In this document: in pieces, positions 17,624 through 21,224 of the stretch
Numbering within the stretch: the stretch's first letter is position 1
Layout: every line of letters begins with the position of its first letter
Assembly (NCBI RefSeq): GCF_023634025.1
Contig: NZ_JALJCW010000001.1
Span: forward strand, 1,463,501 to 1,527,500
Source of the DNA: Hanstruepera flava
GTDB taxonomy: Bacteria; Bacteroidota; Bacteroidia; Flavobacteriales; Flavobacteriaceae
Reading direction: 5' to 3'
DNA length: 64,000 nucleotides
Notes under the pieces: model-generated
The model's database searches: none
What the model saw: only the letters and a program-made list of their open reading frames with translations
Told to the model about the DNA's origin: nothing
Program-made: the position numbers and the translations under genes

Positions 17624-18634
17624 TTAGTTTTTTATTTTTTCAATTTCTTCATTCAATTTGTTTTGCATCTTATCAGCAAAAGCGACCAAAGATTTCGGCG
17701 CCCTAAAGCGATAGCCTACAAATATTTGAAAGTAAGGGATGTTATCATTTACTCGTGTTGATCTGTCTGCATTATGATTCAAAATTAGGTAGCTATAGTG
17801 TGTACCTAAATATAAATTATCAATATCATAGGTAGCCGAAGCCCTAAAGTTCAATTCGGTCAATAATGTAGTTAATGAGTCTTCACCATCGTATTTTGAA
17901 TAATTCAGCCCAATTCCGGCAGAAACCCCTGCCGAAAGTAATATGTTTTTTGTAGGAACAAAATTGTAATAATAGGAAGGTGCAAAAGCAATATCGAAAG
18001 ACTTATAATCATCATCAATTGGAGGGTTCACCAAATCTGTTCTAAAATTGAATTTAGAGTAGTAATATATAATGCTTGGAATAAAGCTTCCTGCACTTTT
18101 AAGCTGTTTTTCGTCTTGGGACGTTATAGCACGAAAAGAAAAATTCTCATTCCAGATATAGGATGTTGCACCACCAATTTTAAAATTTCTGGTTTTTGGT
18201 AAATAGACCGAAATATTATCATCCCTTAAATAGAAACCTTTTTCGTTGAAAAGATCAAAGGTTTGCATAAAGTGCTTCCCAAAAAAGGTTCTTAAGTTAA
18301 GGTTAAAAAGTTTAGAATCTTTATTGTCTTCATTTTTAGCCAAGAAATCCGGGGCAAATGAATAGGAAGCTGTTATGCCTCTAAAAGAGATTGAAGCACC
18401 AATACGGTTTTGTTTGTTAGGTTCAAGATTAAAGAAAGTATCAGAATTACGATCTTTAAGTATAAGCGAATTAGAAGTATTAACATAGTAAGCCCTAGCC
18501 GTTATTCTGTTAGGATAAGAAACCTTGTATTCAGTTTCTTCTTTGTAAATAATTTCTTCATTAGTTTCTTGAGAAAAGCACAATAATGGTAATGTAGATA
18601 AAAGAATAGAAAGCAAACTATTTTTTAGACCCAT
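17624..18634 (-). CDS. DUF4421-family outer-membrane protein inside the hem operon
   Basis: A signal peptide (LLSILLSTLPLLCFSQ) is followed by about 315 residues of regularly alternating beta strands, as in an outer-membrane barrel. The overall look, including an IGASISFRGITASYSFAP motif and a C-terminal FQIFVGYRFRAPKS, matches the Bacteroidota DUF4421 family. No biochemical role is known. The gene overlaps the end of hemF by 10 bp and precedes hemB by 2 bp, so it is embedded in heme biosynthesis. Confidence 0.7.
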   Translation of the reverse strand: MGLKNSLLSILLSTLPLLCFSQETNEEIIYKEETEYKVSYPNRITARAYYVNTSNSLILKDRNSDTFFNLEPNKQNRIGASISFRGITASYSFAPDFLAKNEDNKDSKLFNLNLRTFFGKHFMQTFDLFNEKGFYLRDDNISVYLPKTRNFKIGGATSYIWNENFSFRAITSQDEKQLKSAGSFIPSIIYYYSKFNFRTDLVNPPIDDDYKSFDIAFAPSYYYNFVPTKNILLSAGVSAGIGLNYSKYDGEDSLTTLLTELNFRASATYDIDNLYLGTHYSYLILNHNADRSTRVNDNIPYFQIFVGYRFRAPKSLVAFADKMQNKLNEEIEKIKN

Positions 18635-20109
18635 GATTTTGGTTGTTTTAAAACACTTAAAAGTTTTTCTTCTTTACTACCAACTTCTGGATGATGGTCG
18701 TAAACCCATTGTACATGAGGCGGTAAACTCATTAAAATACTTTCAATGCGGCCGTTGGTTTTTAAGCCAAACAAGGTGCCTTTATCGTGAACTAGATTAA
18801 ATTCCACATAACGACCACGACGTATTTCTTGCCAATCGCGCTGTTCTTTAGAAAAAGGTAAATCCTTTCGTTTTTTAACTATTGGAATATAAGCTTCTAA
18901 AAAACTATCACCAATTTCAGTAACAAAGTTAAACCATTTTTCCATAGACATAGTATCGGTAGTCTTGCAATAATCAAAAAACAAACCACCAATGCCTCGC
19001 GCTTCATTTCGGTGCGAATTGTAAAAGTATTCATCGCACCTAGCTTTGTAGGTTTCGTAAAAATCTGGATTATGCTTATCACAAGCTGTTTTACAAACTT
19101 GATGAAAATGTTTGGCATCTTCTTCAAATAAGTAATATGGAGTTAAATCTTGTCCGCCGCCAAACCATTGGTCAACAATGTCGCCATTTTGATTGTACAT
19201 TTCAAAGTAACGCCAATTGGCATGAACAGTCGGAACAAATGGGTTTTTTGGATGTAAAACCAGACTCAAACCACAGGCAAAAAAGTCCGCTTCAGAAACA
19301 CCAAAATGCTTACGCATGGTTTCGGGCAGTTCGCCATGAACTGCCGAAATATTCACACCGCCTTTTTCAAAAACATTACCATTTTCAATCACGCGTGTTC
19401 TTCCACCACCACCTTCAGGGCGTTTCCAAATATCTTCTTGAAATTGTGCTTTGCCATCAACAGTTTCTAATTTAGAAGTGATGGTATCTTGTAAATCTTG
19501 TATGTATTGATAGAATGTGTCTTTGATATCTGAATTGTATTTGGAGGTTGGCCCTAGACCTGTCAGGTTTTTGAAACCTGACAGGTCTAATTGGTGAGCG
19601 TGTTTAAAATTGTCTAAATCATTAAAAAGTGTTAAGATATAGGGTTTATCATTACTGATAAGAGTTTTTTCGTTTAAAAAGTAATTGTTGTAGGATGTAA
19701 ATTTATACTCATAAAACTTATTAGTCAATTTATGATTTTCAGGATTTTTATGAACATATAAGATGAGGTTCTTTAAGTAAGATTCATCATTGATTTTGAT
19801 ACGCTTAAAAGGTCTTTCAAATAAAGTACCAGTTCTATTTTTTTGTTTATTGAATGCTTTCGCATAGGCATTAAAAAGGTTTGAAAATGCTTGAATAGCT
19901 ATTTTTTCTTCAGAAATAATTTTAACAACTAAATGAAAATGATTGTTCAGTAAACAATAGGCAGCAATACTAACCTTATCTTTAAGATGTTTGTCTATGA
20001 GTTTTAGAAAATAAGTCATATTATCTTCAGATTCAAAAAGAACAGAGCTGTTTATTCCTCTATTGAAAATATGATAGTAATGGTCTTTTTCTATTTTTTC
20101 AAGTTTCAT
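18625..20109 (-). CDS. hemF: RAYT transposase-coproporphyrinogen III oxidase fusion (HemF)
   Basis: Two unrelated proteins in one 494-codon frame. Residues 1-170 are a REP-associated Y1 (IS200-like) transposase: NHFHLVV with the HFH pair at 57-59, probable catalytic Tyr82 in NAYAKAFNKQ, then NRTGTLFERPFKR and LYVHKNPE. Residues 174-186 are encoded by a REP palindrome. Residues 195-494 are a complete aerobic coproporphyrinogen III oxidase: GGGGRTRVIENGN, PTVHANWRYFEM, WFGGGQDLTPYY, SHRNEARGIGGLFFDY, GRYVEFNLVHDKG. HemF converts coproporphyrinogen III to protoporphyrinogen IX with O2. Codon 195 (19525-19527) is ATC where flavobacterial HemF normally starts with ATG (M-K-D). No ATG, GTG or TTG lies in frame between the REP and this point, so HemF is apparently made only as a fusion. 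Confidence 0.93.
   Translation of the reverse strand: MKLEKIEKDHYYHIFNRGINSSVLFESEDNMTYFLKLIDKHLKDKVSIAAYCLLNNHFHLVVKIISEEKIAIQAFSNLFNAYAKAFNKQKNRTGTLFERPFKRIKINDESYLKNLILYVHKNPENHKLTNKFYEYKFTSYNNYFLNEKTLISNDKPYILTLFNDLDNFKHAHQLDLSGFKNLTGLGPTSKYNSDIKDTFYQYIQDLQDTITSKLETVDGKAQFQEDIWKRPEGGGGRTRVIENGNVFEKGGVNISAVHGELPETMRKHFGVSEADFFACGLSLVLHPKNPFVPTVHANWRYFEMYNQNGDIVDQWFGGGQDLTPYYLFEEDAKHFHQVCKTACDKHNPDFYETYKARCDEYFYNSHRNEARGIGGLFFDYCKTTDTMSMEKWFNFVTEIGDSFLEAYIPIVKKRKDLPFSKEQRDWQEIRRGRYVEFNLVHDKGTLFGLKTNGRIESILMSLPPHVQWVYDHHPEVGSKEEKLLSVLKQPKSWV
19556..19588. repeat. REP palindrome 1, inside the hemF fusion coding sequence
   Basis: Perfect 15-bp arms AGACCTGTCAGGTTT and AAACCTGACAGGTCT around a 3-nt loop. 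It is translated in frame as part of the RAYT-HemF linker and shares its core with REP palindrome 2 upstream of the same gene. Together the two bound the transposase reading frame. Confidence 0.9.
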
Positions 20110-20148
20110 TTAATAAGATTACAGTGATTTCTTTTTTTTGCGAGTTTT

Positions 20149-20187
20149 GCGAGACCTGTCAGGTTTTTTAAACCTGACAGGTCTCGC
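20149..20187. repeat. REP palindrome 2, between hemE and the RAYT-hemF gene
   Basis: Perfect 18-bp arms GCGAGACCTGTCAGGTTT and AAACCTGACAGGTCTCGC with a TTT loop. The inner 15 bp of each arm equal REP 1. It sits 39 bp upstream of the transposase start codon and 11 bp after hemE. As RNA it would form a stable hairpin between the two genes of the operon. Confidence 0.9.
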
Positions 20188-20198
20188 AGGCTTCAAAC

Positions 20199-21224
20199 TT
20201 AACTTTTATATTCTTTTACAGCATCAATAAAGGCTTTAGCATGATCTAACGGAATGTTAGGCAAAATACCGTGACCCAAGTTTACAATGTATTTATCTTT
20301 CCCAAACTCATTGATCATTTGGGTTACCATCTTCTTAATTTCTGAAGGCGGAGAAAACAATCTGGTAGGATCAAAGTTTCCTTGTAGTGTAATTTTTCCA
20401 CCAGTTAAATAGCGCGCATTTCTTGGAGAACAGGTCCAATCAACACCTAAAGCCGATGCCTTACTTTTAGACATCTCGTTTAGGGCAAACCAACACCCTT
20501 TTCCAAAGGCTATAACTGGAGCATCCTCATGCAATGCCTCAATAATTTGGTTGATATACTGCCAAGAAAACTCTTGATAATCGGTTGGCGATAACATACC
20601 TCCCCAAGAATCAAATACCTGAACAGCATTACAACCTGCTTTTACTTTTTCTTTTAAATAAGCTATAGTAGTATCTGTAATTTTCTGTAATAGTTGGTGT
20701 GCAGCTATTGGGTTTGTAAAACAAAATTCTTTGGCTTTATCAAAATTCTTGCTCCCTTGTCCCTGAACACAATAGCATAAAATAGTCCAGGGTGAACCTG
20801 CAAAACCAATTAAAGGAATCTCATCATTTAATTTTTCTTTGGTTGCTTTTATAGCTTGATACACATAATTAAGTGCGTCTTTAGCATCAGGAACAATAAC
20901 GTTGTCCACATCTTTTTGAGAGCGTATTGGATTCGGTAGATAAGGCCCAAAATTAGGTTTCATTTGTACCTCAATGTTCATGGCTTGAGGTATAACCAAA
21001 ATATCACTAAACAAAATGGCCGCATCCATACCAAATCTTCTTATTGGCTGAACCGTTATTTCACTGGCTAATTCTGGCGTTTGACAGCGCGTAAAGAAAT
21101 CGTACTTGGCTTTAATTTCCATGAATTCTGGAAGGTAGCGACCAGCTTGTCGCATCATCCATACAGGAGGTCTTTCAACAGTTTCTCCTTTTAGGGCTTT
21201 TAAAAATAAATCGTTTTTTATCAT
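20199..21224 (-). CDS. hemE: Uroporphyrinogen decarboxylase
   Basis: Decarboxylates uroporphyrinogen III to coproporphyrinogen III, the substrate of HemF. Seen: [16 protein letters not shown] near the N-terminus with the conserved Arg pair, [14 protein letters not shown], and a C-terminal [18 protein letters not shown]. Length 341 aa is normal for the family. It lies between hemCD and the RAYT-hemF gene on the same strand, with repeat elements in both flanking gaps. Confidence 0.96.

Follow-up and report, generated by a model that had tools for sequence, protein, structure and literature searches.

REP-associated tyrosine transposases (RAYTs; REP, repetitive extragenic palindrome) are described in the available portion of PMC8049555 as single-copy, vertically inherited and domesticated, with no evidence there of significant transfer at the species level. 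RAYT transfer is proposed in the accessible parts of PMC6006769 and PMC2817692, the latter reporting a betaproteobacterium that acquired its RAYT from gammaproteobacteria, so that RAYT transfer as such is not new. The accessible text of PMC6006769 also states that unexpectedly long proteins were discarded as gene fusions or annotation errors. The present analysis concerns a RAYT fused in frame to the heme enzyme HemF, in a stretch of 64,000 nucleotides from Hanstruepera flava (Flavobacteriaceae; assembly GCF_023634025.1, contig NZ_JALJCW010000001.1, positions 1,463,501 to 1,527,500), which is referred to as the window. The RAYT and its two flanking REPs form a cassette that is settled at the start of hemF in many marine bacteria and is passed between species in ways not shared by the enzyme to which it is joined. 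A literature search confined to open-licence PubMed Central papers returned no earlier description of a RAYT-HemF fusion among the matches listed. The locus is probably best understood as a horizontally exchanged REP-RAYT-REP cassette of a Flavobacteriaceae lineage, which resides at hemF and serves as the N-terminal domain of HemF.

Architecture of the RAYT-HemF fusion

The window holds the fusion as one frame on the reverse strand, with the following features:

18625..20109, minus strand: RAYT-HemF fusion frame, 494 codons plus stop, ATG start, predicted mass about 58.0 kDa
19591..20109, minus strand: RAYT domain, amino acids 1-173, HFH at 57-59, Tyr118 in YVHKNP
19528..19590, minus strand: linker, amino acids 174-194, mostly translated REP (LDLSGFKNLTGLGPTSKYNSD)
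18628..19527, minus strand: HemF domain, amino acids 195-494, complete PF01218
19556..19588, no strand: right REP palindrome, within the coding frame
20152..20184, no strand: left REP palindrome, upstream of the RAYT start, with arms that extend to 19 nucleotides (20148-20188)
20199..21224, minus strand: hemE (URO-D), neighbour upstream of the cassette, by profile match
17624..18634, minus strand: DUF4421 gene, overlapping the 3' end of the fusion, by profile match

The initial annotation had read this locus as a RAYT with HFH at residues 57-59 joined to a complete HemF in a frame of 494 codons, and both the frame and the profile matches bear this out. PF01218 matches amino acids 199-493 over profile positions 2-295 of 295 (451 bits), which makes the HemF domain complete, and the GC content is 25.6% in the RAYT part compared with 37.1% in HemF. 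The NCBIfam profile REP_Tyr_transpos matches amino acids 24-137 of the whole fusion (E 5.9e-11, 42.4 bits, below the 80-bit cut-off), while the RAYT domain alone scores 45.1 bits against the NCBIfam cut-off of 80 and 20 against the Pfam cut-off of 23; the E-values are thus significant, yet both curated family thresholds are missed. Each of the 27 aligned members is matched by NF047646 (E up to 0.01) and by Y1_Tnp (E up to 1). A search of the PDB by sequence profile with the RAYT gave nothing at E 0.01. The AlphaFold model of the RAYT (pLDDT 87.4) has a predicted fold whose top PDB match is 4er8, the E. coli RAYT bound to a REP hairpin (E 9.5e-7, TM 0.60), followed by the IS608 and ISDra2 transposases; the full-length fusion gave a poor model (pLDDT 61, from 6 sequences), which was given no weight.

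The catalytic motifs are conserved among the RAYTs linked to hem genes. With the tyrosine motif defined as Y[IV]xxNP, following the available part of PMC6006769, the motif tyrosine is Tyr118 and not Tyr82 as first annotated; it is present in all 34 aligned hem-linked RAYTs, as is the second histidine, and the first histidine is found in 33 of them. Furthermore, the RAYT half is under purifying selection: dN/dS is 0.09-0.19 in the seven of 13 pairs that have a dS of 0.37-1.5, and 0.22-0.55 in the four youngest pairs, which hold few changes, the other two pairs being saturated. HemF gave 0.03-0.09 in the same analysis. It is plausible that the RAYT half still acts on REPs.

Two REP palindromes, one upstream and one translated as the linker, had also been annotated, and a pattern search of the window recovers them: AGACCTGTCAGGTTT with up to two mismatches occurs four times, which corresponds to the palindromes at 19556-19588 and 20152-20184, compared with a mean of 0.07 and a maximum of 1 in 100 shuffles. 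Both share the same arms. The upstream copy ends 42 nucleotides before the ATG, or 38 if the longer 19-nucleotide arms are counted, so that its place stands and the 39 bp first given for its distance needs correction. The linker LDLSGFKNLTGLGPTSKYNSD is the translated palindrome with a short tail; the forward frames of the window REP comprise two that are open and one with a TGA. Among the linkers of 20 fusions the REP is read as DLxGFxNLxG, or a near form, in 16 (judged by eye). With exact patterns, no palindrome was found beyond these two places in the 3.09-Mb window genome, and the suggested link between heme production and REP spread finds no evidence in this genome. The genome holds a single RAYT-HemF match. 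Since it also has a full HemN scoring above the cut-off, the description of the fused HemF as essential is unproven.

In many genomes of one genus, g158, the cassette comes after an acetyltransferase gene of the GNAT type, the Algibacter copy of which matches Pfam Acetyltransf_3. Here and below, G, L and g numbers denote genomes, loci and genera; g158 includes W. eckloniae and W. luteola. Among the 23 occupied sites with this gene, the C-terminal GNAT residues look REP-encoded in at least 11, ending at the REP TGA or at a TAA in the loop (judged by eye). Within Hanstruepera, H. marina and H. neustonica have the GNAT gene between hemE and hemF, and it is missing there in the window (20110-20198) and in H. 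ponticola (loci compared: L310 of G230 and L311 of G385).

Start codon of HemF

Codon 1 of HemF (codon 195 of the fusion) is ATC in the window, and most unfused relatives examined have ATG or TTG at this place. No in-frame ATG, GTG or TTG lies between codons 128 and 240 of the window fusion and HemF begins at 195, therefore HemF cannot start alone with a usual codon there. The claim that HemF depends on the RAYT for its start is thus supported. Translation would begin at the RAYT ATG, cross the right-hand REP and continue into HemF. The product would be one polypeptide of about 58 kDa, in which a HUH/Tyr nuclease for single-stranded DNA precedes coproporphyrinogen oxidase. Judged from the reading frame, this fused protein is presumably made and stays joined, proteolysis after translation being possible.

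The loss of the HemF start is not confined to the window. Among 43 distinct fusions codon 1 is not ATG, GTG or TTG in 23 (13 of 26 in g158 and 10 of 17 others), and 12 of the 26 g158 fusions have no ATG, GTG or TTG at all from the end of the RAYT to HemF codon 1; G438, the HemF of which is cut by a contig end, was omitted from the junction and codon counts. By comparison, ATG or TTG is found at codon 1 in 37 of 43 unfused rows (41 of the 68-genome genus g158, plus G230 and G385), the remaining six being three scars and three with an ATG two codons upstream. Because removal of the cassette leaves hemF without a start codon, the fusion is likely to protect the cassette. The fused frame could instead be no functional unit: HemF would arise from an internal start or by proteolytic cleavage, and the RAYT frame would be a passenger. 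Indeed, the other 20 of the 43 fusions keep ATG or GTG at HemF codon 1, therefore free HemF could also be made there, and in nine sampled genomes an unfused RAYT stands next to hem genes. The 23 lost codon-1 starts, the 12 g158 fusions without a usual start, the empty interval of codons 128-240 in the window and the purifying selection on the RAYT all speak against a passenger, so that this explanation is unlikely.

Distribution among Flavobacteriaceae

A scan of genome contigs, from which 80 of 102 loci were kept, revealed full-length fusions in Algibacter, Seonamhaeicola, two Winogradskyella and Aequorivita, together with an unfused RAYT upstream of hemF in six Arenibacter. In the family sample of 397 genomes, a RAYT match was obtained in 65 and a HemF match in 331. 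The hem cluster holds every one of the 25 best RAYT matches, 16 in one frame with HemF and nine separate (G328, G162, G212, G206, G138, G127, G317, G393 and G007), and none of the 36 lower-scoring RAYT loci opened adjoins hemE or hemF (up to 4 kb; two are cut by contig ends); the neighbours examined are those of these 61 RAYT loci. Two of the separate loci, L085 (G328) and L086 (G162), are in a half-way state in which the RAYT frame crosses the REPs and its stop falls at the hemF ATG or immediately ahead of it, the RAYT stop and the hemF start overlapping as ATGA in G328. Outside the family, no frame near 500 amino acids was found among the RAYT matches listed for 396 genomes of the class, and none of seven RAYT loci from other families (L380-L384, L386 and L387) lies beside hem genes.

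The same site is occupied in some and empty in other close relatives. In g158 the fusion is present in 26 of 68 genomes, and in Hanstruepera in one of five, a comparison of the kind that the initial annotation had proposed, with related Flavobacteriaceae, as a check: all four other genomes match the query over HemF only. Gain in the lineage of the window is therefore the simplest reading, and the cassette would have reached the window strain after its split from the sampled congeners. The earlier proposal that a REP-RAYT-REP unit entered between hemE and hemF and was domesticated is right in placing the unit there and in its in-frame fusion; what the comparison reveals is a repeated, family-wide arrangement instead of a single event, and a RAYT that is exchanged between species at hemF instead of simply domesticated.

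Counting three overlaps between sets once, the distinct fusion loci total 43. A sequencing or assembly error that removed a stop codon between the two domains, raised at first as an alternative, is practically out of the question: nothing was found in its favour, and the 43 loci repeat the same architecture with linkers of different lengths that are kept in frame.

Conflicting histories of the two halves

All hem-linked RAYTs tested belong to a single clade. A branch with support of 100/98 sets the 33 hem-linked members apart in a tree of 67 RAYTs, and in a tree enlarged by ten rows 35 hem-linked RAYTs are separated from 42 others by a branch supported at 100/99 and present in 100% of 200 bootstrap trees (both trees omit L150 and L178, which are shorter than 130 amino acids, and the 67-RAYT tree also omits L008). 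The 42 RAYTs outside the clade all lie away from hem genes, and the 35 inside all adjoin them. Each of the 26 g158 carriers has one strong RAYT match except G416, the second RAYT of which falls outside the hem clade.

The two halves of the fusion differ in ancestry. The window HemF branches with those of three Hanstruepera in the HemF tree (SH-aLRT 98) and is therefore native. Being fused needs 12 changes as a label on the HemF tree, at least five of them forced by supported branches, and 13 changes on a gyrB tree of 66 genomes, at least eight of them forced (G436 and G446 had no gyrB over the cut-off and were omitted); in a 61-row RAYT tree, g158 alone requires 3 changes, and G168, from another genus, falls inside a g158 group. 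Across 300 pairs of 25 fused g158 genomes (G450, which has no HemE in its stretch, was omitted), identity correlates with that of gyrB at 0.83 for HemE and 0.76 for HemF, compared with 0.17 for the RAYT. The pairs G405/G453, G419/G422 and G403/G417 exceed 91% in gyrB, yet their RAYTs are 60-68% identical. For three gyrB-sister sets, a union of their RAYTs is rejected by approximately unbiased (AU) tests (p 2.6e-4, 1.6e-53 and 1.3e-60), with groups drawn from the gyrB tree after the RAYT tree had been seen.

These trees bear on an ancient vertical domestication, in which a single insertion at hemF in the family ancestor, with early fusion, was followed by loss in most lineages and by no horizontal movement. 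Such a history fits the single clade of hem-linked RAYTs, the losses that do occur (scars in G401 and in G461/G413, described below), and the agreement of the RAYT and HemF trees for some groups (Arenibacter; Aequorivita with G074; G127 with G317; G393 with G007). It does not fit the conflict between RAYT and gyrB within g158, nor the halves of one frame that are very different in age, such as those of the g158 pair G406/G425 with a dS of 0.03 in the RAYT and 1.01 in HemF. Furthermore, G326 and G138, which belong to one genus and are HemF sisters at 99, hold RAYTs on opposite sides of a branch supported at 100/89, and the REP linkers of g158 are read in two frames, DLxGFxNLxG in 16 of 26 fusions and RPxRFxKPxR in the other 10 (judged by eye). 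As a sole process, vertical domestication is therefore refuted for g158; it may hold for the oldest branches, and as an account of the whole family it is very improbable.

Recent transfers and route of entry

Six g158 pairs combine a RAYT identity of 97.7-99.8% with 87-95% in HemF and 83-91% in gyrB. In G406/G425 the most similar block runs from -837 (range -840 to -821) to +2 (-17 to +44) relative to HemF, so that it ends near HemF codon 1, while HemE and HemF stay at the level of gyrB; it is the only pair with both flanks at background. The best right breakpoints fall at HemF nucleotides 2, 8, 41 and 68 in four pairs and are poorly placed in a fifth. On the left, the breakpoint lies at the GNAT end in G406/G425 and G398/G428 and inside GNAT in G402/G411, and two others cannot be placed. 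Horizontal movement of the RAYT without hemF is thus clear in G406/G425 and is seen by tree conflict elsewhere, the flanks partly moving in the other pairs.

Several observations, to which the start codons kept in 20 fusions belong, weigh against a cassette that moves by itself and acts as a domain of HemF. HemE exceeds gyrB by 5.7-13.5 points in five of the six near-identical-RAYT pairs (mean 1.9 in the 294 other pairs) and HemF does so by 3.3-8.7 in four of six (-0.3 in the others), therefore DNA tracts larger than the cassette moved in most recent cases. At the left edge, the place of insertion shifts by several bases from one locus to another. RAYT identity between clades is low (about 58-62% in DNA), and such saturation alone lowers the correlation with gyrB. 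The first HUH histidine is missing in G134 (L093, QFH), the fusion frame of which is still open, and by eye the REP is degraded in three of 20 fusion linkers and absent in one (G168). Finally, the window RAYT has no close relative, the best having 75% protein identity, so that transfer of the window cassette is inferred from its absence in congeners and not from a donor.

Two routes of entry are conceivable: single-strand transposition driven by the RAYT, or homologous recombination in which the hemE/GNAT and hemF flanks of the donor pair with those of the recipient. Movement of tracts beyond the cassette, with the RAYT as the most similar part, is what homologous recombination would be expected to give. 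A fully passive spread, which is a route within the exchanged-cassette interpretation and not its opposite, would have the RAYT inert for its own movement, with recombination of hem-region DNA carrying the cassette and crossovers in the flanks, often near HemF codon 1. The raised flanks in five of six recent pairs, the left breakpoint inside the neighbouring GNAT gene in G402/G411 (two other left breakpoints not being placeable) and the finding that all 35 hem-clade members lie beside hem genes, with no free-moving member seen, are consistent with this route. On the other side, the ends in G406/G425 coincide with those of the cassette within about 20-45 nucleotides with both flanks at background, and right ends lie within the first ~100 nucleotides of HemF in four of five pairs, where ordinary tracts should scatter more; passive spread is accordingly evenly balanced for and against.

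More tentatively, and with some doubt, the cassette can be regarded as an active mobile element with the 5' end of hemF as its dedicated home. The RAYT would insert or replace cassettes there and copy REPs genome-wide, and the REP ends would act as reading-frame adaptors, the left REP giving a stop to the upstream gene and the right REP being read into hemF. The heme enzyme would then carry an exchangeable transposase as an N-terminal domain that cannot be lost without the start codon.

A candidate in which the element brings its own hemF 5' end, leaving a vestigial hemF start upstream, was rejected, as in 25 of 26 g158 fusions no local match beat shuffles (lowest p 0.105), G450 having been left out since its contig begins there. 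G449 alone keeps TATAATGAAAGAT ahead of the left REP (judged by eye).

Loss, scars and dispersed REPs

Occupied and empty sites are accompanied by scarred ones. G401 (L293) holds a broken RAYT remnant beside a HemF with a linker-derived N-terminus, and the gyrB sisters G461 (L250) and G413 (L255) have one REP and an ATG ahead of a HemF without its own start. G424 has no cassette, is the gyrB sister of the carrier G157 and still holds 15 REPs.

REPs outside the locus have a median of 8.5 in the 26 fused g158 genomes versus 0 in the 42 unfused ones, and at least three occur in 22 of 26 versus 8 of 42 (uncorrected p 1e-9). After correction for phylogeny the association is not significant (median p 0.125-0.5 over eight supported independent g158 pairs, in which the REP count followed fusion in 2.6-4.7 and opposed it in 0.1-0.2, depending on the threshold), and because of this the uncorrected association is only suggestive. 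In a picked set of 33 genomes, fused genomes exceed their unfused congeners in REPs in eight of ten genera; in g1 and g154 the surplus lies wholly in the copies at the hem locus. The two exceptions are g133 and g75, where REPs are more numerous in the unfused species, which has a free RAYT at another place (L148 and L151). A free RAYT that could have spread their REPs is also carried by G036, G134 and G207 (L146, L144 and L154). The reversed control pattern gave 0 in all 68 g158 and all 33 picked genomes. The counts of the picked set include G248, G346, G134 and G168, for which the REP positions are not among the matches listed.

The arms of the dispersed copies were compared by eye. Algibacter G260 (30 REP copies), which has no other RAYT match, carries exactly the arms of its own cassette in 14 of 27 outside REPs, and G036 (23 copies) does so in 13 of 21, the REPs that flank its free RAYT having other arms. 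G402, G403 and G405 hold dispersed REPs of several arm types, some matching other RAYT clades, as if from earlier occupants (by eye, among the matches listed).

Comparison with known systems

What emerges is a RAYT lineage that is exchanged among species at a single locus and coupled to an enzyme of core metabolism, in contrast to the description of vertical inheritance in the available portion of PMC8049555. It suggests a testable way for a transposase to persist, since removal breaks the gene that it leads, and it shows a repeat serving as a linker that is translated in frame. RAYT function, REP spread and the cost of fusion could be measured in natural sets of closely related species that differ in their cassettes or have an empty site or a scar. 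A second type of RAYT fusion was seen in G224 (L183:3986-7072, plus strand), where a distant RAYT and a PIF1-like helicase that has HRDC and HTH_40 domains share a frame of 1029 amino acids, and two palindromes of about 34 bp (ACTCACACCGTGACTCAAAGTCACGGTGTGAGT) are read in frame as THTVTQSHGVS.

With REP-RAYT systems (TnpA-REP or REPtron), for example E. coli TnpA-REP (PDB 4er8), the locus shares the HUH and Tyr motifs, the fold, the flanking REP palindromes and, in several carrier genomes, dispersed similar REPs. Unlike in these systems, the hem RAYT is fused to a metabolic enzyme, its REP is a translated linker and it is exchanged between species at one fixed locus. As far as the accessible text of PMC6006769 describes them, TnpA-REP subclass 2.4 likewise has REPs inserted in coding frames with the frame kept, and subclass 2.6 likewise has Bacteroidetes hosts and a patchy distribution, read there as transfer and loss. 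The difference is that the REP there lies within the transposase itself; the hem RAYT is compared here without placement in a subclass.

The Y1 transposase fold and hairpin ends are common to IS200/IS605 elements, from which the hem type differs by occurring once in each genome examined, at one locus, and by REP-type ends (tnpB was sought only among the neighbouring genes read). Site-specific elements, such as integrative elements and inteins, keep or rebuild the 5' end of the host gene. Like them, the cassette leaves its host gene readable, and empty and occupied sites coexist among relatives; unlike them, it showed no integrase or splicing, and the host protein gains an N-terminal domain.

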